NCBI RefSeq assembly: GCF_900200035.1
Contig: NZ_FZTC01000020.1
Coordinates: 1-64,000 of the forward strand
Direction: 5' to 3'
Source of the DNA: Klebsiella grimontii
GTDB lineage: Bacteria > Pseudomonadota > Gammaproteobacteria > Enterobacterales > Enterobacteriaceae
Length of the DNA: 64,000 nucleotides
The notes beneath the pieces were generated by a model that did not search any database, was not told the origin of the DNA, and saw nothing but the letters and a program-made list of their open reading frames with translations. Position 1 is the stretch's first letter; the number at the start of each line of letters is the position of its first letter. Shown piece after piece: positions 10,196 through 64,000 of the stretch. The position numbers and the translations under genes were made by a program.

Positions 10196-10249
10196 CTCTG
10201 ATAATTCGTATTAACCCTGGCTACCTTATGGGTTACAGGCGGCGGTAAG

Positions 10250-10263
10250 TTGATATAAATCAA
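10250..10263 (-). promoter_or_regulatory. FNR box of the narK promoter
   Basis: TTGATATAAATCAA is a perfect FNR dyad centred about 61 bases upstream of the narK start in the narK-narX divergent region. It indicates anaerobic activation of narK. Confidence 0.88.
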
Positions 10264-10405
10264 AGGAAAAGTGGGCGCCGATTTGGCGAAAAAAAACGCA
10301 TCACCCGAAGTGAGTAGCTATTTCTGCGGAAAAAAGTGTGGTTTTTCACGCCAGTGCTGGAATTCCCCGAACACCTGCCACCAGCCCACCCCGCCCTGAC
10401 AATTA

Positions 10406-10432
10406 AGGGGTAATCCTTTAGGGGTATGGGTA
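10406..10432 (-). promoter_or_regulatory. cluster of NarL heptamers between narK and narX
   Basis: Three heptamers matching TACYYMT lie on the minus strand: TACCCCT at 10406-10412, TACCCCT at 10420-10426 and TACCCAT at 10426-10432. They are 140-180 bases upstream of the narK FNR box and about 70-95 bases before the narX start. This is the arrangement expected for NarL activation of narK and feedback on narXL. Confidence 0.7.
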
Positions 10433-10500
10433 TACTCCGGGGGATGGCCGAGAATAAGCGCCACTCCCGGATAATTTACCGGTCAGGAGCCTCGTACCCC

Positions 10501-42724: not shown

Positions 42725-44509
42725 TCAGTTCTGGCCCGCCGCCAGCGAATATTTCTTTATTTTGCGATACAGCGTGGCGATACCAATCCCCAGCTCGTCC
42801 GCCGCCTGTTTTTTATTACTGTAGCGCGAGAGCGCATCGCGGATCATCTGCCGCTCCATCTCTTCCAGCGCCGTCACGTTCTCCTCCTGAGCGAGGGTCG
42901 CTGCCGCGGAAGCAGAAGACGGCGGCTGACTCGCCAGCTCGCTGCTGCTCAGCAGATTGGGCGGCAGCAGCGACATATCGATGATTTCTCCCGACGGCAC
43001 CACGTTGACCAGGTACTCCATCAGGTTGCTGAGTTCGCGAATATTGCCCGGCCAGCGGTAGCGTTTAAGGAAATCGATCACATCCTGCGCCACGCCGGGG
43101 TAAACGAGGTTGAGCCGGCCGGTATGCAGATGCAGGAAATAGTGAATCAGCAGCTCGATATCCTCCTGCCGTTCGCGCAGCGGCGGCAGGCGCAGCGGGA
43201 TCACGTTCAGACGGTAATAGAGGTCCTCGCGAAACTTTCCTTCCGCGATGTACAGTTCAAGATTTTGATTGGTCGCGGAAATAATACGAATATCGACCTG
43301 AACCGGGTGGCTGGCACCCACCGGCTGAATCTCCCGCGATTCGATGGCCCGCAGCAGTTTGGCCTGTAGCGTAAGCGGCATATCACCAATCTCGTCAAGA
43401 AACAGCGTCCCGCTATTCGCCGCCTGAATCAGGCCAGTCTTACCGTTTGCCGATGCGCCAGTAAACGCCCCCTTCACGTAGCCAAACAGTTCGCTTTCTA
43501 ACAGCTGCTCGGGTATCGCGGCGCAGTTAATCGCGATAAAGGGCTTTGCGTGGCGGTCGCTGAGCTTGTGGATTGCGCGGGCCACAACCTCCTTGCCGGT
43601 GCCGCTCTCGCCGGCAATCATCACGCTGGAAGGGCTCGGCGCCACGCGGCTGATCAGCTTTTTAAGCTGCCGCATGGGCCGACACTCTCCGACCATCGCC
43701 TCAATCTGTGGCCCTTCCTGCCCGCTGCTAAAATCGGCGGACGAGTGCGACTGATGGAACGCCATTAAAAATAGCCATTGATCCTGCACCGCGTGCAGTT
43801 GGCCGATAATGAGCTCCTTGCGATCGTCAAAGGAGATAATGTGCTGCATATGTCCGTGCTTGAAATTATCTTCGAAGGTCAACGGCTGAAACTGGATTGC
43901 CTTACCAATAACCTGTCCCTGCGTCACGCTCATTATTTTCAGCGCGGCCTGATTGGCAAATTTGACTATTTGATCGTTACCCACCACCAGCACGCCCTGA
44001 TCCATATTTTCAATCATGGTTAAAAATATTTTATGGATATTGTCGCCGACCGCTCGTTCCTGTAAAAATCGGGAAACGAATATGGTTGATACATGGCGAA
44101 CATAATCAGAAAACTCCTGGATATTCGCATTAATACGCTCCTGCTGCTCGCGCGTCAGCGCGACAAGGCTAATAACGCCGACGCAGCGGTCGTGATACAT
44201 CACCGGGGTGCCAAGAAAGGCTTTCTCTTCACATTTATCTTTATTGTTACAGCCTTTGCAAAGGGGGTCGAAGCGGGAATGAGTGACGACCTTTTCGGTC
44301 TGTGTTTCAATAATGTAGCGAAGAAGCCGCGAGTTTGAATTTAATTTATAGCCAATCTGCTTACTATAAGCCCCGGTTCCGGCCACCCGGTATAATTCGT
44401 TATCGACAATTTCGACTTCCAGCTGGAGGACGCTGGAAAGCATCCGTGCAAACTTCTGAATTGTAGGCTGAATTTGCATTAAAATGGAGGGTGTTTTGGA
44501 CGGTATCAT
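42725..44509 (-). CDS. ygeV: sigma54-dependent activator, YgeV type
   Basis: A 594-residue enhancer-binding protein very close to E. coli YgeV (592). The N-terminal sensor (about 1-180) carries CKGCNNKDKCEEKAF, a cysteine cluster that may sense redox or metal. A PAS-like part (180-270) precedes the AAA+ domain with GESGTGKE, the sigma54-contact loop GAFTGA and RYRWPGNIREL, and a Fis-type HTH lies at the end (KKQAADELGIGIATLYRKIKK). AGAAGG precedes ATG 44509. It is divergent from the ygeW operon and is the likely activator of the sigma54 promoters in the island. Confidence 0.93.
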   Translation of the reverse strand: MIPSKTPSILMQIQPTIQKFARMLSSVLQLEVEIVDNELYRVAGTGAYSKQIGYKLNSNSRLLRYIIETQTEKVVTHSRFDPLCKGCNNKDKCEEKAFLGTPVMYHDRCVGVISLVALTREQQERINANIQEFSDYVRHVSTIFVSRFLQERAVGDNIHKIFLTMIENMDQGVLVVGNDQIVKFANQAALKIMSVTQGQVIGKAIQFQPLTFEDNFKHGHMQHIISFDDRKELIIGQLHAVQDQWLFLMAFHQSHSSADFSSGQEGPQIEAMVGECRPMRQLKKLISRVAPSPSSVMIAGESGTGKEVVARAIHKLSDRHAKPFIAINCAAIPEQLLESELFGYVKGAFTGASANGKTGLIQAANSGTLFLDEIGDMPLTLQAKLLRAIESREIQPVGASHPVQVDIRIISATNQNLELYIAEGKFREDLYYRLNVIPLRLPPLRERQEDIELLIHYFLHLHTGRLNLVYPGVAQDVIDFLKRYRWPGNIRELSNLMEYLVNVVPSGEIIDMSLLPPNLLSSSELASQPPSSASAAATLAQEENVTALEEMERQMIRDALSRYSNKKQAADELGIGIATLYRKIKKYSLAAGQN

Positions 44510-44669
44510 GTATATCGGCCTTCTCATTATTGCGCACCTGAAGAGCGTCGAGCGCGGTGGCTTTATTTATGTTCTGCAGATGATATCACTCCCTTTGCCA
44601 GGGAGCATTGATATAGATAGGGCTAATCTCGGCACCTTATCTTAAATATGCAATAGGAATCACAATTTC

Positions 44670-48775: not shown

Positions 48776-50182
48776 ATGCGCGTACTGATTAAAAATGGCC
48801 TCGTCGTCAACGCCGACGGCCAGGTGAAGCAGGACCTGCTTATCGAAGATGGCCTCGTCAAGCGCCTTGCCGATTCAATTGAGGCCGAACAACCCTGCGA
48901 AGTGATTGACGCCGAGGGCTGCTACGTGATGCCCGGCGGCGTCGACGTTCATACCCATTTCAATATTGACGTGGGTCTCGCCCGCAGCTGCGATGATTTC
49001 TTTACCGGCACCCGGGCCGCGGCCTGCGGCGGTACCACTACCATTGTTGATCATATGGGCTTCGGGCCCGTCGGCTGCCATCTACGCCACCAGTTCGAAG
49101 TCTATCGCGGCTACGCCGCCTATAAAGCCGTTATCGACTACAGTTTTCACGGCGTTATCCAGCACGTTAACCACGGCATTCTCGACGAGATTCCGATGAT
49201 GGTGGATAGCGGCATCAGCAGCTTTAAGCTCTATCTGACCTACCAGTACAAACTCAACGATGATGAGATATTGCAGGCGATGCGCCACCTCCAGCGCGCC
49301 GGCGCGCTGACTACCGTGCATCCCGAAAACGATGCCGCCATCGCCCAGCGCCGGGCTGAATTTATCAACGCCGGTAAAACCGCGCCGCGCTATCACGCCC
49401 TGAGCCGCCCGCTGGAGTGCGAGGCGGAAGCCATCGCCCGAACCATCAACCTTGCGCAGCTGGCGGGTAACGCGCCGCTGTATATCGTGCATCTTTCCAA
49501 CGCCCTAGGTCTGGAATATCTACGCCTGGCCAGAAGACGCCGCCAGCCGGTGTGGGTGGAGACCTGTCCGCAGTATCTGCTGCTGGACGAGCGCTGCTAC
49601 GAGCGCGAAGACGCGCTTAACTATCTGCTCAGCCCTCCTCTGCGCAACGCCAGCAACAACGATGCGCTATGGAGTGGTATCAGCAATGGCGACATTGACA
49701 CGGTCGCCACCGACCACTGCGCGTTCTCAGCACAGCAGCGCAGGCAGATCTCCGGCGGCGACTTTAGCCGCTGCCCGAACGGTCTGCCGGGAGTGGAAAA
49801 CCGCCTGCTGCTGCTGTTCTCGCATGGGGTCATGAGCGGGCGCATCACCCCCGAGCGCTTTGTGGCGCTCACCAGCGCCAATCCGGCGAAGCTGTTTGGC
49901 CTGTGGCCGCAGAAGGGCTTGCTGGCGCCCGGCGCCGATGGCGACGTGGTGATCATCGACCCCAAACGCACCACCACCATTCGCCACGACATGCTGCACG
50001 ACAACGCTGACTATTCACCCTATGAGGGCTTGATCTGCCAGGGCGCGATTCGCCAGACGCTCTCCCACGGCAGGGTGATTTTTGATAACGGCACCTTTAG
50101 CGGCACCGCCGGGCAGGGCCGTTTTTTACGCCGACAACCCTTTTCCACCGCTCACCTGGCCGTCAGCGGAACAGAAACGTAA
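48776..50182 (+). CDS. hyuA: D-phenylhydantoinase/dihydropyrimidinase-like hydrolase
   Basis: A 468-residue cyclic amidohydrolase (E. coli HyuA 461). The metal-binding DVHTHFNID, the carboxylated-lysine region SSFKLYLTYQYKL, the TVHPEN histidine, CPQYLLLDE and ATDHCAFS are all present. It opens cyclic ureides such as hydantoins, suited to a purine ring-opening step. It is followed by yqeA after 12 bases with GAGAGGA upstream. Confidence 0.93.
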   Translation: MRVLIKNGLVVNADGQVKQDLLIEDGLVKRLADSIEAEQPCEVIDAEGCYVMPGGVDVHTHFNIDVGLARSCDDFFTGTRAAACGGTTTIVDHMGFGPVGCHLRHQFEVYRGYAAYKAVIDYSFHGVIQHVNHGILDEIPMMVDSGISSFKLYLTYQYKLNDDEILQAMRHLQRAGALTTVHPENDAAIAQRRAEFINAGKTAPRYHALSRPLECEAEAIARTINLAQLAGNAPLYIVHLSNALGLEYLRLARRRRQPVWVETCPQYLLLDERCYEREDALNYLLSPPLRNASNNDALWSGISNGDIDTVATDHCAFSAQQRRQISGGDFSRCPNGLPGVENRLLLLFSHGVMSGRITPERFVALTSANPAKLFGLWPQKGLLAPGADGDVVIIDPKRTTTIRHDMLHDNADYSPYEGLICQGAIRQTLSHGRVIFDNGTFSGTAGQGRFLRRQPFSTAHLAVSGTET

Positions 50183-50194
50183 TGAGAGGATGCT

Positions 50195-51127
50195 ATGAGT
50201 AAAAAAATTGTTCTCGCTCTCGGCGGGAATGCGCTGGGCGACGATCTCGCCGGACAGATGCAGGCCGTACGGCACACCGCGCGGACGATCGTCGATCTTA
50301 TCGCCCTTGGCCATCAGGTGGTAGTGACTCACGGTAACGGCCCGCAGGTGGGCATGATCAACCAGGCCTTTGAAGCCGCGGCCAAGACCGAGGCCCACAC
50401 GCCCATGCTGCCGATGTCGGTCTGCGTGGCGTTGAGCCAGGGCTACATCGGCTACGACCTGCAGAACGCGATTCGCGAAGAGCTGCTGTCGCGCCAGCTG
50501 GATATTCCAGTGGCGACCCTGATAACCCAGGTGGAAGTGGACGCTAACGATGAAGCTTTTCTTAATCCGACCAAGCCCATCGGCTCGTTCTTCAGCAAAG
50601 AAGAGGCCGAAAAGCTGAGCCAAAACGGCCACATCATGAAAGAGGATGCCGGGCGCGGCTACCGTCGCGTCGTGGCATCGCCTAAGCCGGTCGATATTAT
50701 CGAGAAACAAACGGTAAAAGCGCTGATGGATGACTGCCACGTGGTGATCACCGTCGGCGGCGGCGGCATTCCAGTGATTCGCGAGGGTAACCATCTGCGC
50801 GGCGCCAGCGCGGTCATCGACAAGGACTGGGCCAGCGCGAAGCTGGCGGAGACGATCGACGCCGACCTGCTGATCATTCTCACCGCCGTGGAAAAGGTGG
50901 CGATCAACTTCGGTAAACCTGGCGAACAGTGGCTGGATAACCTCTCCCTGCGCGATGCCGAACGTTTTATCGCAGAGGGACACTTTGCCAAAGGCTCGAT
51001 GCTGCCGAAAGTGGAAGCCGCCGCCGCCTTCGCCCGCTCCCGGCCGGGACGCCAGGCGCTGATCACCATGTTAAGCAAAGCCAAAGAGGGTATCGAAGGG
51101 AAAACCGGCACCATCATTAGCCAGTAA
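50195..51127 (+). CDS. yqeA: carbamate kinase-like protein
   Basis: A 310-residue amino-acid kinase fold protein (E. coli YqeA 310), with LALGGNALG near the N-terminus, VTHGNGPQVG (about 48-57), and VGGGGIPV and LLIILTAVEKV later. Carbamate kinases run carbamoyl phosphate plus ADP to ATP, CO2 and ammonia. It ends the ygeW operon and points to ATP gain from ureido breakdown. A strong stem-loop follows it. Confidence 0.94.
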   Translation: MSKKIVLALGGNALGDDLAGQMQAVRHTARTIVDLIALGHQVVVTHGNGPQVGMINQAFEAAAKTEAHTPMLPMSVCVALSQGYIGYDLQNAIREELLSRQLDIPVATLITQVEVDANDEAFLNPTKPIGSFFSKEEAEKLSQNGHIMKEDAGRGYRRVVASPKPVDIIEKQTVKALMDDCHVVITVGGGGIPVIREGNHLRGASAVIDKDWASAKLAETIDADLLIILTAVEKVAINFGKPGEQWLDNLSLRDAERFIAEGHFAKGSMLPKVEAAAAFARSRPGRQALITMLSKAKEGIEGKTGTIISQ

Positions 51128-52454: not shown

Positions 52455-52470
52455 TGGTGTGATTGTTGCT
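52455..52470 (+). promoter_or_regulatory. sigma54-type promoter of ygfK-ssnA
   Basis: TGGTGTGATTGTTGCT has GG-N10-GC spacing and a perfect TTGCT -12 block, with a poorer -24 block (TGGTG for TGGCA). It is 88 bases before the ygfK start, in line with the other island units. Confidence 0.65.
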
Positions 52471-52542
52471 CCTCTTCCGTTATCCGTCGGGATGATGACC
52501 ACCGGCAATGTCGATCTTACAATGATATCTAAGGAGTGGGTT

Positions 52543-55500
52543 ATGGGAGATATAATGCGTCCCGTGCCGTTTGAGGAGCTATTAACGCGCATTTTCGATG
52601 AGTATCAGAGTCAGCGATCTATTTTTGGCATTCCTGAACAGCAGTTTTATTCGCCGCAGGCGCAGCGTTCGATCGGCGTATTCGGCGAAAGCTGCGCCAC
52701 GCCTCTCGGCCCGGCTGCCGGGCCGCACACCCAGCTGGCGCAGAACATTATTACCGCCTGGCTAACCGGCGGGCGGTTTATAGAGCTGAAAACCGTTCAG
52801 ATCCTTGACCGCCTGGAGCTGGAAAAGCCCTGTATCGATGCGGAAGATGAGTGCTTCAATACCGAATGGTCCACTGAATTTACCCTGAAAAAAGCCTGGG
52901 ATGAGTACCTGAAAGCCTGGTTCGCCCTGCATCTGCTGGAGCAGGTCTTTCCGCTGGCGACGAACAAAGAGAGCAAGTCGTTTATTTTCAATATGAGCGT
53001 CGGCTACAACCTTGACGGTATTAAGCAGCCGCCGATGCAGGAATTTATCGACAACATGATGGACGCCTCCGCGCATCCTAAATTCGCCCAGTACCGCGAC
53101 ACGCTGAACCGCTGGCTGCAAAATAAACCCTTTATTGACAGCCTGCCAACATGCGCGCGCAAAGACGGGCTGGACAACCTGGCGCAGCGCGTACCGGCCA
53201 GGCTGGTCCAGGGCGTCACCCTCTCGACGATGCACGGCTGCCCGCCGGATGAGATCGAAGCCATCTGCCGCTATATGCTGACCGAGAAAAATCTCAATAC
53301 CTTTGTGAAGCTCAATCCGACCCTGCTCGGCTATCCGCGCGTGCGCCAGATCCTCGACGCCTGCGGCTTCGGCTATATCGGCCTTAGCGAAGCGTCGTTT
53401 GACCACGACCTTAAGATCGACCGGGCGCTGGAGATGCTGACGCGCCTGATGGCGCTGGCGAAGGAGCGCAGCCTCGGCTTTGGCGTCAAGCTGACCAACA
53501 CCCTCGGCACCGTCAACAACAAGGGGGCGCTGCCCGGGGATGAAATGTATATGTCCGGGCGCGCGCTGTTCCCGCTCTCTATCAACGTGGCCGCCCTGCT
53601 CTCGCGGGCGTTTGACGGCAAGCTGCCGATCTCCTACTCCGGCGGCGCCAGCCAGCTCAACATTCGCGAGATTTTCGACACCGGTATTCGCCCTATCACC
53701 ATGGCCACCGACCTGCTGAAGCCGGGAGGATATCTGCGCCTGAGCGAGTGCATGCGCGAGCTGGAGAAAGCCGACGGCTGGAACATGACGCAGATCGATG
53801 TCGAGCGCCTCAACGCGCTGGCGGAAAAAGCGGTGAGCATGGACTACACCCAGAAACAGTGGAAGCCGGAAGAGCGCATTGATACCGGCGAGCCGCTGCC
53901 GCTGCTGGACTGCTACGTCGCCCCCTGCGTGACGGCCTGCGCCATCAAGCAGGATATTCCGGAGTATATCCGCCTGCTGGGCGAGCATCGCTACGCCGAC
54001 GCGCTGGAGCTGATCTATCAGCGCAACGCTTTACCGGCCATCACCGGCCATATCTGCGATCACCAGTGCCAGTACAACTGTACGCGGCTGGATTACGACA
54101 GCGCGCTCAACATCCGCGAACTGAAAAAAGTGGCGCTGGAGAAAGGCTGGGACGCGTACCGTAGCCGCTGGCATAAGCCCGCGGGATCCGGCTCCCGGCA
54201 CCCGGTAGCGGTGATCGGCGCAGGCCCTGCCGGTCTCGCCGCCGGCTACTTCCTCGCCCGCGCCGGGCATCCGGTCACGGTTTTTGAACGTGAAGCCAAC
54301 GCCGGGGGCGTGGTGCAGAATATCATTCCGCAGTTCCGCATTCCCGGGGAACTTATCCAGCACGATATTGATTTTGTCGTCGCCCACGGCGTCAAAATTG
54401 AATACGGTTGCGATCCGCATCTGAGCGTGGAAAAGCTGCAGGCGAAAGGTTTTCGTTACGTGCTGGTCGGCACCGGTACCGATAAAAACAGCGGCGTGAA
54501 GCTGGGCGGCGACAACCAGAACGTGCATAAGTCGCTGCAGTTCCTGCGCCAGTTTAACCGCGGCGCCGAGCTGAATCTGGGCAAACATGTGGCCGTGGTC
54601 GGCGCCGGCAATACCGCGATGGACTGCGCCCGCGCGGCGCTGCGCGTACCGGGCGTGCAGAGCGCGACCATCGTCTATCGCCGTTCTCAGCAGGAGATGC
54701 CCGCCTGGCGCGAAGAGTACGATGAGGCGCTGCTCGACGGCGTCGGCTTCGAGTGGCTATGTAACCCGGAACAGTTTAACGCCGACGGAACGCTCGTCGT
54801 ACGCGTCATGAAGCTGGGCGAGCCGGATGAGAAAGGCCGCCGCCGTCCGGTAGAAACCGATGAACTTCGCACGCTGAAAGTCGACTCCCTGATTACCGCC
54901 ATCGGCGAGCAGCAGGACGGCGAAGCGCTGTCGGCAATGGGGATCCCGCTCGACCCGCAGGGCTGGCCGGTGGTCAACGCCGATGGCGAGACCAGCAAGC
55001 CGAACGTCTTCCTGATCGGCGACGTTCAGCGCGGCCCCTCATCTATCGTCTCCGCTATCGGCAACGCGCGACGGGCCACGGACGTGATTCTGGCCCGGGA
55101 AAATATCGCCAGCCGCTACGGAAACAAAGTCTGGAACAATGTCGATCCGGCGAAGGTGTACCAGCGCAAAGGCGCCATCGCCGTCACCCTGGTGGATAAA
55201 AACCAGCGCGAGGCTTTTGTCGAGCAGGAAGCCAGCCGCTGCCTGGAGTGTAACTACGTGTGCAGCAAGTGCGTCGACGTCTGTCCGAACCGCGCCAATA
55301 TTTCCGTGGCCGTCCCGGGCTTCCAGAATCGCTTCCAGACCCTGCATCTGGACGCTTATTGCAACGAATGCGGCAACTGCGCTCAGTTCTGCCCGTGGCA
55401 GGGAAAACCGTATAAAGACAAAATCACCGTGTTCAGCCTGGAGCAGGATTTTGTCAACAGCACCAATCCGGGCTTCTTCGTCGCGGGCGCCAGCGTCAAA

Positions 55501-55647
55501 GTGCGTCAGGACGACCAGACGTGGCAGCTGGAAATAAACGACCGCGGCCAGTTTAACGAGGTACCGGCTCAGTTGGATGCCATGTGCCGCATCATAAGCC
55601 ATATTCATCAGCACCAAAGCTATCTTCTGGGAGGCGTTGAAGTATGA
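52543..55647 (+). CDS. ygfK: YgfK: flavin/Fe-S oxidoreductase (putative selenate reductase subunit)
   Basis: A 1034-residue protein very close to E. coli YgfK (1032). The N-terminal half (1-470) resembles a dihydropyrimidine/dihydroorotate dehydrogenase-type barrel (GPAAGPHTQLAQN). A GltD-like FAD/NAD part follows (VIGAGPAGLAAGYFLARAG at about 555, VVGAGNTAMDCARAA). The C-terminal ferredoxin part has CLECNYVCSKCVDVCP and CNECGNCAQFCPW. The start is at ATG 52543 (MGDIMRPVPF) with AAGGAG upstream. Known names link it to selenate reduction, but clusters like this one point to anaerobic purine or urate reduction. It overlaps ssnA by four bases. Confidence 0.93.
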   Translation: MGDIMRPVPFEELLTRIFDEYQSQRSIFGIPEQQFYSPQAQRSIGVFGESCATPLGPAAGPHTQLAQNIITAWLTGGRFIELKTVQILDRLELEKPCIDAEDECFNTEWSTEFTLKKAWDEYLKAWFALHLLEQVFPLATNKESKSFIFNMSVGYNLDGIKQPPMQEFIDNMMDASAHPKFAQYRDTLNRWLQNKPFIDSLPTCARKDGLDNLAQRVPARLVQGVTLSTMHGCPPDEIEAICRYMLTEKNLNTFVKLNPTLLGYPRVRQILDACGFGYIGLSEASFDHDLKIDRALEMLTRLMALAKERSLGFGVKLTNTLGTVNNKGALPGDEMYMSGRALFPLSINVAALLSRAFDGKLPISYSGGASQLNIREIFDTGIRPITMATDLLKPGGYLRLSECMRELEKADGWNMTQIDVERLNALAEKAVSMDYTQKQWKPEERIDTGEPLPLLDCYVAPCVTACAIKQDIPEYIRLLGEHRYADALELIYQRNALPAITGHICDHQCQYNCTRLDYDSALNIRELKKVALEKGWDAYRSRWHKPAGSGSRHPVAVIGAGPAGLAAGYFLARAGHPVTVFEREANAGGVVQNIIPQFRIPGELIQHDIDFVVAHGVKIEYGCDPHLSVEKLQAKGFRYVLVGTGTDKNSGVKLGGDNQNVHKSLQFLRQFNRGAELNLGKHVAVVGAGNTAMDCARAALRVPGVQSATIVYRRSQQEMPAWREEYDEALLDGVGFEWLCNPEQFNADGTLVVRVMKLGEPDEKGRRRPVETDELRTLKVDSLITAIGEQQDGEALSAMGIPLDPQGWPVVNADGETSKPNVFLIGDVQRGPSSIVSAIGNARRATDVILARENIASRYGNKVWNNVDPAKVYQRKGAIAVTLVDKNQREAFVEQEASRCLECNYVCSKCVDVCPNRANISVAVPGFQNRFQTLHLDAYCNECGNCAQFCPWQGKPYKDKITVFSLEQDFVNSTNPGFFVAGASVKVRQDDQTWQLEINDRGQFNEVPAQLDAMCRIISHIHQHQSYLLGGVEV

Positions 55648-56981
55648 GTATCCTGATCCTGAAAAATGCCACCGCCGCGCAGATCTATCCGGCGAAAGTG
55701 TGGGAGAACGTCGATATCGCCATTGAGAATGATAAAATTCTCGCTGTCGGCCCCGGCCTGTGCCAGCGCTATCCGCAGGCGCAGGTGAAAGAGATGCGCG
55801 GGCAGCTGGTGATGCCCGGCATGGTCTGCTCGCACAATCACTTTTATTCCGGCCTTTCCCGGGGGATTCAGGCCAATATCGCCCCCAGTCCGGACTTTAT
55901 CTCCACGCTGAAAAACCTGTGGTGGCGCCTTGACCGGGCGCTGGACGAAGAGTCGCTCTACTACAGCGGGCTGATCTGCGCTATGGAGGCCGTACGTAGC
56001 GGCTGCACGGCGGTTATCGATCACCATGCGTCGCCCCACTATATCACGGGCTCCCTGAGCCAGCTGCGCAACGCCTTCCTCAAAATCGGGCTGCGCGGGA
56101 TGACCTGCTTCGAAACCACCGACCGCAACTTTGGCAGCCGCGAGCTGCGCGACAGCGTTGAGGAGAACATTCGTTTCGCCAGAGAGATCGACGCCGCCCG
56201 CGAGAAGGGAGACCAGCCTTATCTGGTCGAGGCCCATATCGGCGCCCATGCGCCGTTCACCGTGCCGGATGAAGGTCTGGCGATGCTGGGCGAAGCGCTA
56301 AAAGCCACCGGCCGCGGCCTGCATATCCACGCGGCGGAAGACCGCTACGATGTCTCTCACAGCCATCACCTTTACGGCAAGGATCTGCTGGCGCGGCTGG
56401 CGGAGTTCGGCCTTATCAACAGTAAAACGCTGATTGCTCACGGTCTGTACATCTCCGATGCTGACGTGGAGCTGCTCAATGCGCAGGACGGTTTCCTGGT
56501 GCACAACGCGCGCTCCAATATGAACAACCACGTCGGCTACAACCACCGCCTGCCGCAGATCCGCAATCTGGCGCTCGGTACCGACGGCATCGGTTCCGAT
56601 ATGTTCGAGGAGATGAAGTTTGCCTTCTTTAAACACCGCGACGCCGGCGGGCCGCTGTGGCCGGACAGCTTCGCGAAGGCGCTGAGCAACGGCAATGAAC
56701 TGTTGAATCGCAACTTCAACGCCCGCTTTGGCCGCCTTGAGGCGGGCTATAAAGCGGACCTCACCCTTTGCGACTATATGGCGCCGACGCCGCTTATCGC
56801 GGAAAACATCGCCGGGCATATCGCTTTCGGCCTGGGGTCAAACAGCGTGCGCAGCGTCATGGTGAACGGCGTGATGATCTACGAGGATCGCCAGTTCAGA
56901 TTCGACTGCGAGCCGATATTCCGCGAAGCGCAGAAAGTGGCGAAAAAAATGTGGGCGCGAATGGACGCGCTCCCCGCGTAG
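55644..56981 (+). CDS. ssnA: SsnA-family aminohydrolase
   Basis: A 445-residue amidohydrolase (E. coli SsnA 442). Metal motifs: CSHNHFYSG, the middle HAAEDRYD and HG, and the aspartate in LGTDGIGSDM. Related enzymes deaminate purine or guanine-like rings, and the cluster context suggests a hydrolytic step on a purine product. The start overlaps the ygfK stop (ATGA). A good terminator follows. Confidence 0.92.
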   Translation: MSILILKNATAAQIYPAKVWENVDIAIENDKILAVGPGLCQRYPQAQVKEMRGQLVMPGMVCSHNHFYSGLSRGIQANIAPSPDFISTLKNLWWRLDRALDEESLYYSGLICAMEAVRSGCTAVIDHHASPHYITGSLSQLRNAFLKIGLRGMTCFETTDRNFGSRELRDSVEENIRFAREIDAAREKGDQPYLVEAHIGAHAPFTVPDEGLAMLGEALKATGRGLHIHAAEDRYDVSHSHHLYGKDLLARLAEFGLINSKTLIAHGLYISDADVELLNAQDGFLVHNARSNMNNHVGYNHRLPQIRNLALGTDGIGSDMFEEMKFAFFKHRDAGGPLWPDSFAKALSNGNELLNRNFNARFGRLEAGYKADLTLCDYMAPTPLIAENIAGHIAFGLGSNSVRSVMVNGVMIYEDRQFRFDCEPIFREAQKVAKKMWARMDALPA

Positions 56982-56997
56982 CCCGCGTAAAAACGCT

Positions 56998-57025
56998 AAA
57001 CCGGCCTGGCAAGCCGGTTTTTTTT
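56998..57025 (+). terminator. ssnA terminator
   Basis: AACCGGC and GCCGGTT (56999-57005 and 57013-57019) form a stem with a seven-base loop followed by a T run to 57025, 17 bases past the ssnA stop. Confidence 0.88.
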
Positions 57026-57085
57026 GCTGACAGAACGCGGGCGTGTGAAATTGCCCGGGGGCTTCCGCGCCGCCGGGCGCAACGT

Positions 57086-57562
57086 TTACAGCGACAGCAG
57101 CGCGGCGGTGGCGATATTGCGCTGCTTTTGCAGCGCGCTGAGCTGCTCTTCGGTCATGATAATCAGCGCCGCCGTCGGGCAGACGTCAACGCAGGCGGGG
57201 CCGCGCTCCCGGGCGCCGCAAAGATCGCACTTAACGATAACCGGCGTCAGGCCGGCCGCCACCTCGATGGCAATCGCCCCAAACGGGCAGGCGATCGCGC
57301 AGCTCTGGCAGCCAATGCAGCGCCCGCCGTCGGCTTCCACCTTCTCCGCCCCCATGCTCAGCGCCCCGGTCGGGCAGGCGCCCACGCAGGGCGCGTTCTC
57401 GCACTGATGACACATCACCGGTACGCTAAGATCGTCGAGGCGCATCACCTTCAGGCGGGGGTGAAACTCCGCCCCCGGCGCCACGTGTTCCAGCGCACAG
57501 GCTACCTCACAGGTCCGGCAGCCGATGCAGGCCTGCGAACTGGCAACGATAAAACGGGTCAT
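57086..57562 (-). CDS. four-cluster ferredoxin, HydN/YgfS type
   Basis: A 158-residue electron-transfer protein with four cysteine groups: CIGCRTCEVAC, CHQCENAPCVGACP, CIGCQSCAIACP and CDLCGARERGPACVDVCP, as in HydN (linked to formate dehydrogenase H in E. coli) and YgfS. It has no signal peptide and is cytoplasmic. The start overlaps the aegA-type stop as ATGA, so it is coupled to that flavoprotein. It may relay electrons between FdhF and the aegA-type enzyme. Confidence 0.88.
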   Translation of the reverse strand: MTRFIVASSQACIGCRTCEVACALEHVAPGAEFHPRLKVMRLDDLSVPVMCHQCENAPCVGACPTGALSMGAEKVEADGGRCIGCQSCAIACPFGAIAIEVAAGLTPVIVKCDLCGARERGPACVDVCPTAALIIMTEEQLSALQKQRNIATAALLSL

Positions 57563-59499
57563 ATCTCCTCCCGGGCCGTGAATTGCGCCAACATCTCGCT
57601 GGCCGCCTGCCGCCCGGCGACCATGGCGGTGACCACCAGGTCCGCGCCGGTCACGGCGTCGCCGCCGGCAAAGATTTTGTCATGGCTGGTTTGCGTCGTT
57701 CCGCGCCCTTTGCCGCCGGTGACTATCTGCCCCCAGCGGTCCAGCTTAATGCCGTGGCCGCGCAGCCACGGCATCTCGTGAGCCTGAAAGCCAAACGCCA
57801 TAATGAGCACATCGGCTTTAAGTTCAAACCCGGAGTCCGGGATCGGCTGCGGCCGGCGGCGGCCGTCCGGGCCCGGATCGCCCATCTTCGTGCGGATCAT
57901 CTCCACCGCGCAGACCTGCCCCTTACGGTTGAGCTGAATGCGCTGCGGCTGCACGTTAAACTCAAATTTCACCCCCTCTTCCCGCGCGTTCACCACCTCT
58001 TTTTTCGACCCGGGCATGCTTAGCTCATCGCGACGGTAGGCGCAGGTTACGCTCTCGGCCCCGCGACGAACGGCGGTGCGCAGGCAGTCCATCGCCGTAT
58101 CGCCTCCGCCAAGCACCACCACGCGTTTCCCCTTGATGTCGGTCAGCGGATACTCGGCGCTCTCTTCGAGCCCCATCACCTCGCGGGTGCTGGCAATCAG
58201 AAACGGCAGCGCCTGAATCACGCCGGGGGCGTTCTCTCCCTCCAGACCGGCGGCCATCAGACCGTAGGTGCCCACGCCGAGGAAAACGGCGTCATAGTTT
58301 TTCAGCAGATCGGCAAAAGCCACGTCGCGTCCCACCTCCTGGTTGAGATGAAAATTGACGCCCATGGCGCTAAAAACGTCGCGCCGCCTCTCAAGCACGT
58401 TTTTATCCAGCTTGAACGGCGGAATACCGAAGGTCAGCAGGCCGCCGATTTCCGGATGGCGATCGAAGACGTCAACGTGCACGCCCGCGCGCACCAGAAT
58501 ATCGGCGCAGCCCAGTCCGGCGGGCCCGGCGCCAATCACCGCCACCCGCTCCGGGCGCGGGGCCACGTTGTCGATGGTCGGTCGCCAGCCCATCGCCAGC
58601 GCGGTATCGGTGATATAGCGCTCAAGATTGCCAATGGCGACCGAGCCGCCCTCGTTCTTTAAGGTGCAGGCCCCTTCGCACAGCCTGTCCTGCGGACAGA
58701 CGCGGCCGCAAATCTCCGGCAGGGAACTGCTTTGATGGCACAGTTCCGCCGCCTCGATAATCTTGCCTTCGTTCACCAGGCGGATGAAATCGGGAATGTG
58801 GTTATGCAGCGGACAGATCCAGTTGCACCACGCCTTCTGTGCGCAGTAGAGGCAGCGTTCGCTCTCATATTCCGCATCGCGCTCGCTCAGCGGCTGATAG
58901 ATTTCGCCGAAATGCCGCAGGCGGTCATCGGCGGGCACTTTTTTCGCCCCAACGCGCGGAGGTTTATTGAGTATCGCATTACGTCTCGCACCGCGAACGC
59001 CCTCCAGCGGTCTTTCCAGCGCGGAGCGGATCTGCCGCGCGGTGCGCAGCTGGTTAACGGCGGCTTCATCCATCAGGCGCAGCGCCTGGGTTGGACAGCT
59101 GGCTACGCAGGCCTGCTGGCCGGACGGGTGCTGACGGCAAAGATCGCACTTCTGCGCCAGCTGCGGCGCGTCGTCATCGTTGGCCACCATCTCAATGGCG
59201 CCAAAAGGACAGGCGATGACGCAGTTTTTACAGCCGATGCACAGCGCCTCGGTAAACTGAACGCTGTCGTTAGCCACGCTCAGCGCCTGAGTCGGGCACG
59301 AGCCGACGCAGGGGGCGTCGTTGCAGTGGCGGCAGGTCGTCGCGCTGCTGGCCTTGCGGTTGAAGAACACGCGGATGCGCGGAAGAAAGTCGCTGCGCTG
59401 CTGGGGCCAGCTGTCCTGGCGATGAGAGGTGACGCAGGCCACTTCACAGGCGTGGCAGCCAATACAGTTTGCAGAATCGGCAACGATAAATTTATTCAT
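57559..59499 (-). CDS. aegA: AegA/YgfT-type ferredoxin-flavoprotein oxidoreductase
   Basis: A 646-residue protein. The N-terminal 180 residues are a HydN-like ferredoxin with four cluster motifs (CIGCHACEVAC, CRHCNDAPCVGSCP, CIGCKNCVIACP, CDLC). From about residue 200 it is GltD-like: a bis-Fe-S region (CLYCAQKAWCNWICP, CGRVCPQDRLCEGAC), FAD motif IGAGPAGLGCADILV and NAD motif VVLGGGDTAMDC. ATG 59499 (MNKFIVADSANCIGC) was chosen. E. coli AegA (659) and YgfT (639) are required for formate-dependent urate degradation. It is divergent from the permease-fdhF unit. Confidence 0.9.
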   Translation of the reverse strand: MNKFIVADSANCIGCHACEVACVTSHRQDSWPQQRSDFLPRIRVFFNRKASSATTCRHCNDAPCVGSCPTQALSVANDSVQFTEALCIGCKNCVIACPFGAIEMVANDDDAPQLAQKCDLCRQHPSGQQACVASCPTQALRLMDEAAVNQLRTARQIRSALERPLEGVRGARRNAILNKPPRVGAKKVPADDRLRHFGEIYQPLSERDAEYESERCLYCAQKAWCNWICPLHNHIPDFIRLVNEGKIIEAAELCHQSSSLPEICGRVCPQDRLCEGACTLKNEGGSVAIGNLERYITDTALAMGWRPTIDNVAPRPERVAVIGAGPAGLGCADILVRAGVHVDVFDRHPEIGGLLTFGIPPFKLDKNVLERRRDVFSAMGVNFHLNQEVGRDVAFADLLKNYDAVFLGVGTYGLMAAGLEGENAPGVIQALPFLIASTREVMGLEESAEYPLTDIKGKRVVVLGGGDTAMDCLRTAVRRGAESVTCAYRRDELSMPGSKKEVVNAREEGVKFEFNVQPQRIQLNRKGQVCAVEMIRTKMGDPGPDGRRRPQPIPDSGFELKADVLIMAFGFQAHEMPWLRGHGIKLDRWGQIVTGGKGRGTTQTSHDKIFAGGDAVTGADLVVTAMVAGRQAASEMLAQFTAREEI

Positions 59500-59681
59500 T
59501 TGCTTCCCTTTATTATTCCAGGACTCACCGGGGAGCAATGCAATAATCAGACGCTTTTTTAAAAGCGATTAATATGCCGCTCATTTTTGCGAGCAGCCTC
59601 AAAAAAACGGCTTTATTCCCGCTTAGCGACTCGATAAATATCCCCTGCCGCGGAGCGATGATGTTTTCCTTCACCCGGGTT

Positions 59682-59742
59682 TAATCATGTTGATAATTCA
59701 CCGTATCGATCGCGATACCAAAATGAGATTCTGCCTATCTCA
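59682..59742. promoter_or_regulatory. three adjacent dyads between aegA and uacT
   Basis: TAATCA-TGT-TGATAA (59682-59696), GTATCG-ATCG-CGATAC (59703-59718) and TGAGAT-N7-ATCTCA (59724-59742) follow one another. The first is a near match of the TTATCA-N3-TGATAA dyads at the other two sigma54 units. They sit 126-186 bases upstream of the uacT -24/-12 element. The 510-base gap 59500-60009 holds no convincing gene; a 108-codon frame overlapping these sites (59687-60013) was rejected. Confidence 0.5.
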
Positions 59743-59867
59743 ATGTGATAGCGCGCGTTTATTTATCGCGGGGCGTCTTGCAGGAAATTTCAGACTGGAA
59801 GATATTCCGCCCTTTTCGCGTGAGTTATTTCACACAATTCCCCATCAATTCCCTCAGCGCTTATTTT

Positions 59868-59883
59868 TGGCACAGCTTACGCA
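59868..59883 (+). promoter_or_regulatory. sigma54-type promoter of uacT-fdhF
   Basis: TGGCACAGCTTACGCA has a perfect TGGCAC -24 block and GG-N10-GC spacing, with ACGCA instead of TTGCA at -12. It lies 127 bases before the permease start. Confidence 0.7.
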
Positions 59884-60009
59884 TATCCCTCATTGTGCGC
59901 GCAACACGCTGATGAACGTATCGGCTCAGGGAGGCAGCGGCCTTCGAATCGTAACTTCAACTTTGTCCTCGCTTATACAGAGTGAAGTCGTACAGGAGAT
60001 AACAACTTC

Positions 60010-61482
60010 ATGAAAGATATCGCCAATTCCGCCTCACGAAACGGGAGCTCGACCGCGCCGGTCGATGAAGTTTTACCCGTTACGCAAATGATTCTTTATG
60101 GGCTACAGCACGTGCTGGTGATGTACGCCGGCGCCGTCGCGGTTCCGCTGGTGGTGGGCAACGCGGTAGGGCTCCCGCCGGAACACATTATTTTACTCAT
60201 CAGCGCCGACCTGTTTATCTGCGGCGCGGCCACCATCGTGCAGTCGCTGGGGGTCGGTAAGTGGCTCGGCTGTCGGCTGCCGCTTATCCAGGGCTGCACC
60301 TTCGCGGCGCTAATCCCGATGGTGCTGATCGGTAAGGAGTACGGGATCGGCGGTATTTCCGGGGCGGTGATCGTGTCCGGTATATTCATCCTCTGCTGCG
60401 CGCCGTGGATTAGTAAGCTCATCCGCTTCTTTCCCAAGGTGGTGATGGGCAGCATCGTCACGCTTATCGGCATGTCAATTATGCCGGTCGCAGGCGGATG
60501 GATTGGCGGCGGCAGCAGCGAAATGAGCGGCTTTGGCGCCCCCTTCTCGCTGCTGATGGCGGCGATTACGCTGGTGATTATTCTCAATATTTACACCTTT
60601 GCCTCCGGCGTCGTGAAAAACACGTCGGTGCTGATCGGTCTTATCATCGGCACCGTACTCTGGAGCTGCTTTAAGCCTCTCGACTTTAGCCTCGTCCACG
60701 CCACCCCCTGGCTCCATCTACCGACCCTGATGCCCTTCGCCAAACCTGAGTTTCACATTATTCCCGTCGCCCTGCTGTCGATGGTGATGGTGGTGGTAAT
60801 GGTGGAAACCATGTCCTCGATGATGGCGACCGGGGATATCGTCGGGAAAAAGGTGGACGCGAAGATGCTGCGCAACGGCCTTAACACCTGCGGTATCGCG
60901 ACCACTATTTGCGGCTTCTTCAATCTGTTTCCCTACGCCGCGTTCGCGCAGAACGTCGGCCTGATCGGTTTAACCGGGGTGCGCAGCCGTTTTGTGGTGT
61001 CGGTCTCCGGCATCATTCTGATTCTGATGGGCGTGTTCTCAAGGATGGCGGCGCTGGTGGTGCTGATACCGAAACCGATCCTCGGCGGCGCGGGCATCGT
61101 CATGTTCGGTATGGTGGCGGTGTCCGGTATCCGTACCCTGGGGCAGGTCAACTACCGCAACAATAATAACGGTATGGTGGTGGCATTAACGCTCGGCCTC
61201 GGCATGATGCCGGTGCTGGTGCCCAACTTATTCACCCAGTTTCCGCCGATGGTTCAGCTGTTTCTGCACAGCGGGATTACGATCGGTACCCTGACGGCTA
61301 TCGTCGCCAACCTCACCCTCAACGGCAGCGTACCTTTGCGCGTTAACCACGAAACGCCGGTCCCCGATCCGGCCCCGCCAAGCTCGGCGGCGCGCAACAT
61401 GGCCGTCAGAACCGTCAGAATGTGGCTCCTGCTGCGCAAAGTTCAAAAGGAGAGACAGCCGGAAGAAGCCCAGGAGGGGTAA
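60010..61482 (+). CDS. uacT: urate/xanthine:proton symporter, NCS2 family
   Basis: A 490-residue inner-membrane protein with about 14 hydrophobic segments. It has the NCS2 signature QNVGLIGLTGVRSR, the conserved acidic TM8 (MVVVMVETMSSMMATGDIVG) and NLFPYAAFAQN before the signature. The C-terminus, VRTVRMWLLLRKVQK, is close to that of E. coli UacT (VRTVRMWLLMRKLKK), so urate is the likelier substrate; xanthine remains possible. Its stop overlaps the next small frame (TAATG). It starts the unit that includes fdhF, so urate uptake and formate oxidation are coexpressed. Confidence 0.9.
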   Translation: MKDIANSASRNGSSTAPVDEVLPVTQMILYGLQHVLVMYAGAVAVPLVVGNAVGLPPEHIILLISADLFICGAATIVQSLGVGKWLGCRLPLIQGCTFAALIPMVLIGKEYGIGGISGAVIVSGIFILCCAPWISKLIRFFPKVVMGSIVTLIGMSIMPVAGGWIGGGSSEMSGFGAPFSLLMAAITLVIILNIYTFASGVVKNTSVLIGLIIGTVLWSCFKPLDFSLVHATPWLHLPTLMPFAKPEFHIIPVALLSMVMVVVMVETMSSMMATGDIVGKKVDAKMLRNGLNTCGIATTICGFFNLFPYAAFAQNVGLIGLTGVRSRFVVSVSGIILILMGVFSRMAALVVLIPKPILGGAGIVMFGMVAVSGIRTLGQVNYRNNNNGMVVALTLGLGMMPVLVPNLFTQFPPMVQLFLHSGITIGTLTAIVANLTLNGSVPLRVNHETPVPDPAPPSSAARNMAVRTVRMWLLLRKVQKERQPEEAQEG

Positions 61483-61601
61483 TGATGCTCACCAGACTCC
61501 TGTTCGCATTGCTAACCCTGCTGCTGCTGGCGATCCCCGTCGTGCAGCAGGGGATCGCCCAGGGCCTGAACGGCCGCTTTAGTTTTGCCCTGCTGTTCTA
61601 A
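61482..61601 (+). CDS. unnamed 39-residue membrane peptide
   Basis: A short frame starting in a TAATG overlap with the permease stop, preceded by AGGAGGGG at 61472-61479. It encodes 39 residues: a short basic N-terminus (MMLTR), one strongly hydrophobic stretch (LLFALLTLLLLAIPVV, about 6-21), then QQGIAQGLNGRFSFALLF. This suggests a single-span membrane peptide. The second ATG at 61485 is an alternative start. I do not recognise a family. Its place between the urate permease and fdhF suggests a subunit or regulator of one of them; this is inference. Confidence 0.65.
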   Translation: MMLTRLLFALLTLLLLAIPVVQQGIAQGLNGRFSFALLF

Positions 61602-61618
61602 GGTTAAGGACCCTTGCT

Positions 61619-63766
61619 ATGAAGAGAATAACGACCGTCTGCCCCTACTGCGCCTCCGGCTGCAAAATGCAGCTCACGGTAGAGGAGGGAAACATTACCC
61701 GCGCCGACGCCGCGATGGGAAAAAACAATCAGGGCACCCTGTGCCTGAAGGGCTACTACGGCTGGGATTTTATTAACGATACCCAGATCCTCACGCCGCG
61801 CCTGAAAACCCCGATGATCCGCCGCCAGCGCGGCGGCAGGCTAGAATCCGTCTCCTGGCATGAGGCGCTCGATTACGTCGCCACCCGTCTGAGCGCCATT
61901 AAAGAGAAGTATGGGCCGGACGCGATTCAGACCACCGGATCTTCGCGCGCCACCGGCAATGAAACCAACTACATCATGCAAAAATTCGCGCGCGCCGTTA
62001 TTGGTACCAATAACGTCGACTGCTGCGCTCGCGTCTGACACGGCCCTTCGGTTGCAGGTCTGCACCAGTCGGTCGGCAACGGCGCGATGAGTAATGCCAT
62101 CACCGAGATCGATAATACCGATCTGGTGTTTATTTTCGGCTATAACCCGGCGGATTCGCACCCTATCGTGGCGAATCATATCCTCAACGCCAAACGCAAC
62201 GGGGCGAAAATTATCGTCTGCGATCCGCGTAAAATCGAAACCGCGCGCATTGCCGATCTGCACCTTGCCCTGAAAAACGGCTCCAATATTGCGCTGCTCA
62301 ACGCCATCGGTCACGTCATTATCGAAGAGGATCTGTACGATAAATCCTTCGTCGCCGGGCGTTCCGAAGGCTTCGACGCGTATCGCAACATCGTCGAAAG
62401 CTATACGCCGGAATCGGTGGAAGCCATCACCGGCATCAGCGCCAGGCAGATTCGCGAATGCGCGCGGCTGTACGCCACCGCCGGAAACGCCATGATTCTA
62501 TGGGGAATGGGGGTGACCCAGTTCTGGCAGGGCGTCGAAACGGTGCGCTCCCTGACTAGCCTGGCGATCCTCACCGGCAACCTGGGGAAACCGCACGTCG
62601 GCGTTAACCCGGTACGCGGCCAGAACAACGTCCAGGGGGCCTGCGACATGGGCGCGCTGCCCGACACCTTTCCGGGCTATCAGTATGTGAAATTCCCGGA
62701 AAACCGGGAGAAGTTCGCCAACGCCTGGGGCGTCGAGAGCCTGCCGGAGAACCCCGGCTACCGCATCAGCGAGCTGCCGCACCGCGTGGCGCGCGGTGAA
62801 GTGCGGGCGGCGTATATCATGGGGGAAGATCCGCTGCAGACCGACGCCGAGCTTTCCGCCGTACGTCAGGCCTTCGAGGATTTGGAGCTGGTTATCGTCC
62901 AGGATATTTTCATGACCAAAACCGCCGCGGCGGCCGATGTGATTCTGCCCTCGACATCGTGGGGCGAGCATGAGGGCGTCTATACCGCTGCGGACCGCGG
63001 CTTCCAGCGTTTTTTCAAGGCGGTAGAGCCGAAGTGGGATCTGAAGACCGACTGGCAGATCATCGGCGAGATCGCCACCCGCATGGGTTATCCGATGAAG
63101 TACGACAACACGCAGCAGATCTGGGATGAGCTCCGCCAGCTGTGTCCCAACTTTTTCGGCGCGACCTACGAGAAGATGGGAGAGCTGGGCTACGTGCAGT
63201 GGCCGTGCCGCGACGAGTCGGAGGCGGACCAGGGCACTTCGTATCTGTTTGCGGAGCGCTTCTCAACGCCGAACGGGCTGGCGCAGTTCTTCACCTGTGA
63301 ATGGCAGGCGCCGATCGATAAGCTGAGCGACGAGTATCCGCTGGTGCTCTCCACGGTGCGCGAAGTGGGCCACTACTCCTGCCGCTCGATGACCGGCAAC
63401 TGCGCGGCGCTGGCCAAACTGGCGGACGAACCGGGATACATCCAGATCAACACCGCCGACGCCAAACGGCTCGGCATTGAGGACGAAGAACTGGTGTGGG
63501 TTAACTCGCGCAAAGGCAAGGTGATTTCCCGGGCGAAGGTCAGCGACAGGCCGAATAAAGGGGCGGTCTATATGACCTACCAGTGGTGGATCGGCGCCTG
63601 CAACGAGCTGGTCACCGAGAATCTCAGCCCGATAACTAAAACCCCGGAGTATAAGTACTGCGCGGTTAACGTTGAGCGCATTGCCGATCGGCAAGCCGCC
63701 GAACGGTACGTTATTGATCAATACAACCAGCTGAAAACCCGTCTGCGCGACAGCGCCGCAGGGTAA
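61619..63766 (+). CDS. fdhF: formate dehydrogenase H, selenocysteine-containing
   Basis: A 715-residue molybdoenzyme oxidising formate to CO2. The in-frame UGA at 62036-62038 encodes selenocysteine 140, as in E. coli FdhF (DCCARV-U-HGPSVAG), so the two halves seen as separate frames are one gene. The N-terminal [4Fe-4S] motif is CPYCASGC, then GTLCLKG. The rest matches E. coli FdhF over its length, including EVGHYSCRSMTGNC near the C-terminus. It has no signal and is cytoplasmic. It lies 17 bases after the small membrane peptide and probably forms one operon with the permease; the usual E. coli location is unlinked to purine genes. Confidence 0.96.
62036..62066 (+). promoter_or_regulatory. 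SECIS element of fdhF
   Basis: Just after the UGA, GGU (62050-62052) pairs with ACC (62064-62066) and GCA (62054-62056) with UGC (62061-62063). U62053 is bulged and the apical loop is GGUC. This is the SelB-binding hairpin known from E. coli fdhF, directing selenocysteine insertion. Confidence 0.92.
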
Positions 63767-63802
63767 AAAATATCGCCCCGCGGTGCGCACCCCGGGGCGA
63801 TA
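63765..63802 (-). terminator. terminator of the MocA-like gene
   Basis: On the minus strand TATCGCCCCG and CGGGGCGATA (63771-63780 and 63793-63802) form a ten-pair stem with a twelve-base loop, followed by TTTTTT at 63765-63770. It serves the minus-strand gene ending at 63831 and may also hinder read-through from fdhF. Confidence 0.8.
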
Positions 63803-63830
63803 GTGTCTCTTCTCATTCCCTTCGCCAACG

Positions 63831-64000
63831 CTAACCGACAGCGGCCTGATCCTTACGGCAGCGACGGGCGACCTCAAGATACTGCTGCGGAGTATCAACG
63901 TCCCAGTGAATCCCCTGACTCGCCACGGGAATAACGCGCACCGCCATCTGACCGATAACGTCTCGTAGGGTGGCCCCTTGCGGGGCGCGATGAATCAGCG
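63831..64000 (-). CDS. mocA: MocA-like molybdenum cofactor cytidylyltransferase (3' end)
   Basis: The last 56 codons of a gene running off the right edge; its start is outside the window. The reading (GATLRDVIGQMAVRVIP, then GIHWDVDTPQQYLEVARRC) matches the C-terminus of MobA/MocA nucleotidyltransferases, including the WDVDTP motif. MocA (YgfJ) makes the cytosine-dinucleotide cofactor for xanthine-dehydrogenase-type enzymes, and in E. coli it lies in the same purine cluster. The call is family-level because only the end is visible. Confidence 0.7.
   Translation of the reverse strand, partial: LIHRAPQGATLRDVIGQMAVRVIPVASQGIHWDVDTPQQYLEVARRCRKDQAAVG

Follow-up and report, generated by a model that had tools for sequence, protein, structure and literature searches.

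An additional formate dehydrogenase H gene in the reductive uric acid cluster of Klebsiella grimontii suggests formate as an electron supply

Introduction

In a 64,000-nucleotide stretch of the Klebsiella grimontii genome (hereafter the window), the selenoprotein gene fdhF, which encodes a formate dehydrogenase H (FDH-H), stands behind the genes of a UacT-like permease and of a small membrane peptide, and this trio diverges from a ygfS-ygfT pair for a ferredoxin and the flavoprotein UacF. The same window holds ygfK, ssnA, a hyuA-type gene, ygeW, ygeY, ygeX and a carbamate kinase gene, all of them genes of the reductive uric acid pathway. The cluster fdhF is an additional copy; the genome (G000, 6.17 Mb, close to K. 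michiganensis and K. oxytoca) keeps its canonical copy elsewhere. The extra copy suggests that formate is used as electron supply for anaerobic uric acid breakdown. For E. coli, the dependence of urate degradation on formate is published and an involvement of FDH-H and AegA/UacF in it is proposed (passages of PMC8097209 and PMC12507026), and the latter source assigns the NADH-dependent reduction of urate to XdhD-YgfM and the NAD(P)H-dependent reduction of yanthine to YgfK with SsnA. Below, G-numbers denote genomes, L-numbers loci and C-numbers contigs of G000, the window being contig C27.

Results and Discussion

The start codon of the peptide gene overlaps the stop codon of the permease gene, and fdhF begins 17 nt past the peptide; on the opposite strand the ends of ygfS and ygfT overlap (Table 1). 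These open reading frames (ORFs) and spacings confirm what a sequence-only reading of the window had described, an fdhF joined to a permease and a small membrane peptide and divergent from a flavoprotein coupled to a HydN-type ferredoxin, which is YgfS. That fdhF is a selenoprotein gene was likewise borne out: codon 140 is a TGA in frame, and a SECIS_2 element scores 77.7 bits (gathering score 70). Its product scores 1031 bits with the formate dehydrogenase alpha model TIGR01591 (cut-off 666.25) and is close to the E. coli FDH-H subunit (PDB 1aa6, 7z0t). Eight catalytic or cluster positions are invariant in all 100 aligned FdhF rows when Sec is read as Cys, and the [4Fe-4S] cysteines, Sec140, His141 and Arg333, whose functional roles we presume, are present in the cluster copy. 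The flavoprotein had been called AegA-type, a label we had to reject because it stays below the cut-off of the AegA model NF009408 (964.6 against 1003) and passes the YgfT/UacF model NF009451 (1189.7 against 1154). The listed ORF of the flavoprotein begins 39 nt ahead of the ATG. Residues 1-106 of the protein (14-119 of that ORF) match HycB of formate hydrogenlyase (FHL; 7z0s_B, 2e-32), and for the C-terminal part the matches are GltD, NfnI alpha and dihydropyrimidine dehydrogenase. With its HycB-like start and GltD-like rest, UacF thus joins the known partner type of FdhF to an NAD(P)H-flavin module. The substrate of the permease is uncertain because its identity to E. coli UacT is 42.5%; in four other fdhF-linked loci a UacT of 82-84% identity to the E. 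coli protein is found. Matches to the YqfG-like peptide (tblastn, 45-85%) occupy the same place in L017, L020, L123 and L131.

Table 1. Features of the uric acid cluster and its surroundings; positions are those of the window, or of the contig where they exceed 64,000.
Feature	Position	Strand	Basis
fdhF, second FDH-H paralogue, selenoprotein, 715 aa	61619..63766	+	FDH alpha model, TGA, SECIS
First 36 fdhF codons, purine-type N-terminal segment with 3/4 [4Fe-4S] Cys ligands	61619..61726	+	alignment
SECIS_2 element at Sec codon TGA (62036-62038)	62031..62085	+	Rfam RF01988
YqfG-like small membrane peptide, 39 aa	61482..61601	+	sequence; likeness to E. coli YqfG by eye
NCS2 purine permease, UacT-like	60010..61482	+	profile match; 42.5% to E. 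coli UacT, 27% to XanQ
Sigma-54-type box TGGCACAGCTTACGCA, ~140 nt upstream of permease ATG	59868..59883	+	promoter scan; weak alone
ygfT/uacF, fusion of a HycB-like ferredoxin domain with a GltD-like NAD(P)H-flavin module	57559..59499	-	NCBIfam NF009451, structure matches
ygfS, HydN/HycB-like 4Fe-4S ferredoxin	57086..57562	-	57% to E. coli YgfS
ssnA aminohydrolase	55644..56981	+	TIGR03314
ygfK, yanthine reductase homologue	52459..55647	+	TIGR03315; 80% to E. coli YgfK
YqeB-like short protein, 277 aa	51176..52009	-	matches residues 1-259 only of 541-aa E. coli YqeB
carbamate kinase	50195-51127	+	profile matches
hyuA-type dihydropyrimidinase	48776-50182	+	profile matches
ygeY	47514-48725	+	profile matches
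ygeX	46251-47450	+	profile matches
ygeW	45001-46188	+	profile matches
uacR/ygeV-type sigma-54 activator	42725..44527	-	73% to E. coli YgeV
mocA-like gene, 3' end (runs on to contig position 64442)	63831..64000	-	L013
2Fe-2S subunit and fused XdhA-XdhB-type enzyme, past the window end after the mocA-like gene	64500-68228		L013

The canonical seleno-fdhF of G000, on contig C22, is 88% identical to the cluster copy and has E. coli-type neighbours, which in the E. coli record L090 we take to be gltP-, yjcO-, mdtP- and mdtO-like genes. In that record fdhF is unlinked to the purine cluster, in line with the earlier statement that the two lie far apart in E. coli. Comparison of the cluster fdhF with the canonical copy of the same genome (dN 0.071, dS 0.655) shows a constrained gene. 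A third FdhF-like protein, 64% identical and with no stop at position 140, is encoded at C5:724180-726315 (L012:9180-11330), where it adjoins LDH-type and amidohydrolase-type genes (assigned by eye); this type occurs in 18 of 20 genomes of the genus. Contig C15 carries a hyc-type operon with a HydN-like gene, both named by eye.

The gene-order comparison that the sequence-only reading had proposed came out in favour of the linkage. In the genus set of 20 genomes, which includes that of the window, YgfT is found in 11, and in all 11 fdhF follows the permease: the whole gene lies about 2 kb from YgfT in eight, and in three the contig ends inside fdhF past the permease. The nine genomes without YgfT have one seleno-type fdhF each, partial in one. 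Over the 11.3 kb from ygfK to fdhF the window is 94.7% identical to K. michiganensis and 93.2% to K. oxytoca. Among the best 80 of 584 named FdhF loci, ten have purine-cluster neighbours, the hosts being K. michiganensis, K. oxytoca, Pluralibacter gergoviae, Enterobacter sp. JUb54, Cedecea colo, Raoultella ornithinolytica, two Serratia, Enterobacter genomosp. O and one metagenome-assembled genome. A YgfT-type protein is present in 15 of 149 genomes of the family, in ten of them above the curated cut-off; outside the genus we set the line at the gap between 1049.6 and 910.4 bits. Order-wide, 5 of 394 genomes gave YgfT-type matches, one of them (G382) outside the family. Pooling the genus and family sets gave 24 YgfT genomes, which are related and of which 11 come from one genus. 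The cluster fdhF is found in 17, namely the 11 of the genus and G092, G096, G052, G060 (cut), G045 and G068, and not in G061, G099, G102, G160, G080, G111 and G157. Since the same junction recurs in several genera, the adjacency of fdhF and permease is not due to chance. A megablast of window positions 53000-64000 against 5426 E. coli genomes gave no place with 80% coverage, which is not itself a test of linkage.

G045 and G068 (L088) show a second arrangement, in which ygfK-ssnA-permease is followed by fdhF and YgfT lies 21 kb off or on another contig. Between permease and fdhF this arrangement has a reverse-strand gene of 261-264 aa (L088:8935-9720; L121), whose HCSAGKDRTG or HCTAGKDRTG sequence is presumably a phosphatase-like motif. 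The cluster FdhF of G052 (L123, fdhF 9523-11667) has Cys (TGT) at position 140 in place of Sec, and in this 3.2 Mb genome no other FdhF was found at E <= 1e-250. SECIS_2 reaches the gathering score in six of the seven fdhF-linked loci scanned, the exception being L121. A tree built from 100 FdhF rows groups the G045 and L088 copies with L087 (SH-aLRT 99); the other 16 purine copies sit apart from them among Klebsiella canonical copies. Its starred branches cannot be fitted with fewer than three label changes, and a single origin of all purine-linked FdhF was therefore rejected, with the reservation that conversion mixes the bodies and that a change may be a loss. The tree suggests that fdhF was recruited into purine clusters at least twice. 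Separately, an Enterobacteriaceae-type fdhF was seen on a contig labelled Chryseobacterium (L063), probably a contamination or mislabel.

A TGGCAC/TGGCAT box with GC ten bases on is the best match on the permease strand in 18 of 18 permease promoter regions, about 86-157 nt before the start, including those of E. coli ygfT/uacT and of the fdhF-less L120 and L140. Canonical fdhF has its own sigma-54 box (TGGCATA...TGCA), found before all four canonical copies scanned and conserved in the aligned ones. No such fdhF-type box stands before the cluster fdhF in the six main-arrangement loci scanned; in the second arrangement fdhF has its own sigma-54-type box. Because the permease box is present and an fdhF-type box is absent, permease, yqfG and fdhF are likely co-transcribed.

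The enzyme for the first reduction probably differs from that of E. coli. Neither XdhD nor YgfM was found in G000 at E 1e-60 and 1e-15. Both together occur in 6 of the 24 YgfT genomes, in one of 17 with and five of seven without the cluster fdhF (Fisher p = 0.003, the genomes not being independent); outside the host genus the counts are 0/6 against 5/7 (Fisher p = 0.02, with the same dependence). A fused XdhA-XdhB-type protein is present in 20 of the 24, among them all 17 with the cluster fdhF. In G000 it has a separate 2Fe-2S subunit and lies beside fdhF, and in most main-arrangement loci seen it is within a few kb of fdhF; in G011, G014 and G018 the contigs end in between. The idea of a cluster without any FAD subunit was rejected, as the fused enzyme has a FAD domain. 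A concerted loss of YqeC/YqeB and XdhD was also discarded: YqeC was not found in the window and is present in the fdhF-linked L128, L130 and L068 with no XdhD nearby. Two loci deserve mention here. In K. michiganensis (L014:13358-16570) the fused enzyme is split between an ORF of 619 aa and an adjoining one of 450 aa, an assembly error or a pseudogene, and in Enterobacter genomosp. O (L068:12705-19607) two tandem genes of fused-XDH size (1080 and 1077 aa) stand beside fdhF.

We infer the following electron route. UacR and sigma-54 would switch on permease-yqfG-fdhF when urate is present, and the cluster FdhF would oxidise formate. The exit for the electrons would be the N-terminal [4Fe-4S] cluster of FdhF, with YgfS and/or UacF's HycB-like domain as acceptor in place of HycB of hydrogenase 3, and YgfS or another ferredoxin may link FdhF to the flavoprotein. 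The GltD-like flavin module of UacF would then make NAD(P)H or pass the electrons on directly, so that formate would drive both reductions, that of urate to yanthine in the XDH-type enzyme and that of yanthine to its dihydro form in YgfK. The contact of FdhF with HycB in FHL consists of hydrophobic patches and hydrogen bonds according to the part of PMC9474812 that describes it.

A competing reading, which we judge rather unlikely, is a direct low-potential route in which YgfS hands the formate electrons to the XDH-type enzyme or to YgfK and UacF is a bifurcating or side enzyme, not a maker of NAD(P)H. The NADH-linked XdhD-YgfM is indeed missing from 16 of the 17 genomes with the cluster fdhF, for the C. 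difficile enzymes a use of ferredoxin is presumed (PMC12507026), and a commentary treats XdhAC as an enzyme whose physiological donor is unknown (PMC12990295). What speaks against such a route is that a FAD domain is retained in the fused XDH, which therefore could accept NADH, and that NAD(P)H serves E. coli YgfK in vitro (PMC12507026).

The N-terminal segment of FdhF bears on where the electrons exit. For diagnostic residues, eight window-type purine copies were compared with 79 rows, three distant and ten purine rows being left out. Seven of the 12 diagnostic positions fall in residues 17-36, between the ligands Cys15 and Cys42, a clustering that 0 of 20,000 permutations equalled. All 15 purine copies of the main clade have Met33 and Asn36, which a few non-purine copies share. 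At the DNA level, eight pairs of copies from the same genome were compared. The pairs of G001, G002, JUb54 and R. ornithinolytica are 97.4-98.9% identical past bp 150 and 77-82% identical in the first 150 bp, and those of the window, K. michiganensis, K. oxytoca and G010 have bodies of 83-86% identity. In the four former pairs a dense mismatch block ends at bp 107-108, and the first 108 bp account for 27-34 of the 52-86 mismatches. The high identity reaches the stop codon, and in G001, G002 and JUb54 it goes on for some 50-100 bp; upstream of the start codon the copies share no homology. By their first 36 codons, 11 purine copies are set off on one side of a branch (bootstrap 100, SH-aLRT 99), while the bodies pair with the canonical copy of their own genome, with full support in three genomes and in G001 by identity (97.4% against at most 93.0% to copies of other genomes). 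The simplest account is that the body was gene-converted and the N-terminal electron-exit segment kept apart, a passive heterology boundary being a less likely alternative; the distinct N-terminus on a converted body is perhaps partner specialisation under gene conversion.

A purely passive relic, with conversion tracts that stop where the upstream homology is lost and no specialisation for a partner, appears rather unlikely to us. It would fit the missing homology before the start codon and the wide variation of the purine copies in these 36 codons, at the DNA level too. Also in its favour, the canonical copies are somewhat more constrained there at synonymous sites (rank 26 of 677 windows) and the purine copies are not (rank 580); the effect is mild, and the idea that the 5' end of canonical fdhF is under strong overlapping constraint was rejected. 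A relic is harder to reconcile with the high identity past the stop codon, with the same end point of the mismatch block in all four genomes, and with the clustering of diagnostic residues at 17-36, which is also seen in the unconverted lineage of the window (7/12). We tentatively propose, as something less than probable, that the N-terminal 36 residues serve as an exchangeable module for electron exit: conversion would keep the shared catalytic body alike, and selection would hold the N-terminal segments apart. One type of segment would route formate electrons to hydrogenase 3, the other to a soluble formate:NAD(P)H unit of FdhF, YgfS and UacF, which would drive urate reduction in place of the NADH-linked XdhD-YgfM.

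It is quite improbable that the second fdhF is a spare copy which adds FDH-H for FHL or general formate disposal and was inserted in the purine cluster by chance: the copies are identical at catalytic positions, bodies of 97-99% identity in four of eight pairs make the catalytic parts look interchangeable and the host also has the hyc-type operon, but the same junction is found in several genera after apparently at least two recruitments, the fdhF-type sigma-54 box is missing in the six main-arrangement loci, the N-terminal segments and not the bodies form one branch side (100/99), and the cluster copy accompanies YgfT within the genus.

We consider it probable that a duplicated FDH-H gene was built into the reductive uric acid cluster of Klebsiella-type bacteria as a dedicated electron source. 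Several observations weigh against this. G061 has the same cluster with the permease directly followed by mocA and the fused Xdh and no fdhF there, so that fdhF is not obligatory; G002 possesses both systems, its XdhD-YgfM more than 1 Mb from its fdhF cluster, and in G052 the fused Xdh lies ~1.2 Mb from the cluster fdhF. Each permease sigma-54 box is weak singly, being reached by 7-48 of 100 shuffles. The conversion pattern, present in four of eight pairs, is absent from the window's own pair. That the fused XDH-type enzyme carries out the first (urate) reduction here is our inference, and Glu606 of XdhD was dropped as a marker for urate reductases as it falls in a gapped loop and could not be placed reliably. 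Purified XdhD-YgfM uses NADH and YgfK with SsnA uses NAD(P)H, and formate therefore need not be a direct donor (PMC12507026, in part). In the E. coli two-hybrid table of PMC6004506, FdhF with AegA reached 511 MU at a threshold of 600; AegA bound HydN, HycB and YsaA strongly, and YgfT and YgfS are outside that table. The same source reports, in the part concerned, that deletion of aegA affected FDH-H dye activity no more than in the parents.

Two further ORFs were rejected as genes, one of 108 aa (59687-60013) that spans the promoter region and one of 211 aa (63263-63898) that lies opposite fdhF and has no NCBIfam match. The window also contains an RtT RNA at 63-193 (Rfam RF00391, 134.8 bits) and, at 14419-17124 near narX, an assimilatory-nitrate-reductase-like molybdoenzyme with a C-terminal NirB-like stretch, an ordinary nitrate region.

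Compared with formate-dependent urate degradation in E. coli, the ygfS-ygfT/permease-yqfG block, the UacR homologue and the downstream pathway genes are the same, as is formate via FDH-H as the proposed donor (PMC8097209, in part). The E. coli records examined differ in that fdhF is unlinked and idi follows yqfG, whereas G000 has a second FdhF paralogue in the apparent operon. Because ygfS-ygfT-uacT-yqfG is also the order in the E. coli genome examined, the new element is the cluster fdhF alone. The reductive uric acid pathway of E. coli shares YgfK, SsnA, the HyuA-type enzyme, YgeW, YgeY and YgeX and has XdhD-YgfM where G000 has the fused enzyme and its 2Fe-2S subunit. With formate hydrogenlyase-1 the cluster has in common a close FdhF relative and, in UacF, a HycB-like domain; it differs by its N-terminal segment, by the missing fdhF-type promoter and by the absence of hydrogenase genes among the annotated genes at 35-64 kb of the window. 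Clostridium acidurici, a purine fermenter, also has FDH-H genes (fdhF1/fdhF2-hydABC), but there fdhF is clustered with an iron-only hydrogenase, as a passage of PMC3519856 describes. We found no account of an fdhF in a urate-permease operon in the literature, in a search whose coverage mostly left out subscription papers.

Conclusion

In summary, the view of a formate-linked purine-reduction locus draws good support from the recurrent gene order, the apparent recruitments, the promoter loss and the distinct N-terminus, and it is stronger than first stated because the cluster fdhF is an extra gene with signs of specialisation. What fell is the AegA label and the role of the flavoprotein as purine reductase: UacF is probably not this enzyme, as published work gives urate to XdhD-YgfM and yanthine to YgfK with SsnA (PMC12507026, in part). 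Gut bacterial anaerobic urate breakdown contributes to the urate balance of the host, and among the points listed as undiscovered in a 2025 commentary is the physiological electron donor of XdhAC, the molybdoenzyme that starts it (PMC12990295). The FdhF encoded in the cluster is a named candidate for this donor, and it can be separated by gene removal where the canonical fdhF is kept. The same test would be blurred in E. coli because its one fdhF would serve both FHL and the urate route. Genomes with two copies may also be regarded as a natural domain-swap experiment on the electron destination of FDH-H.

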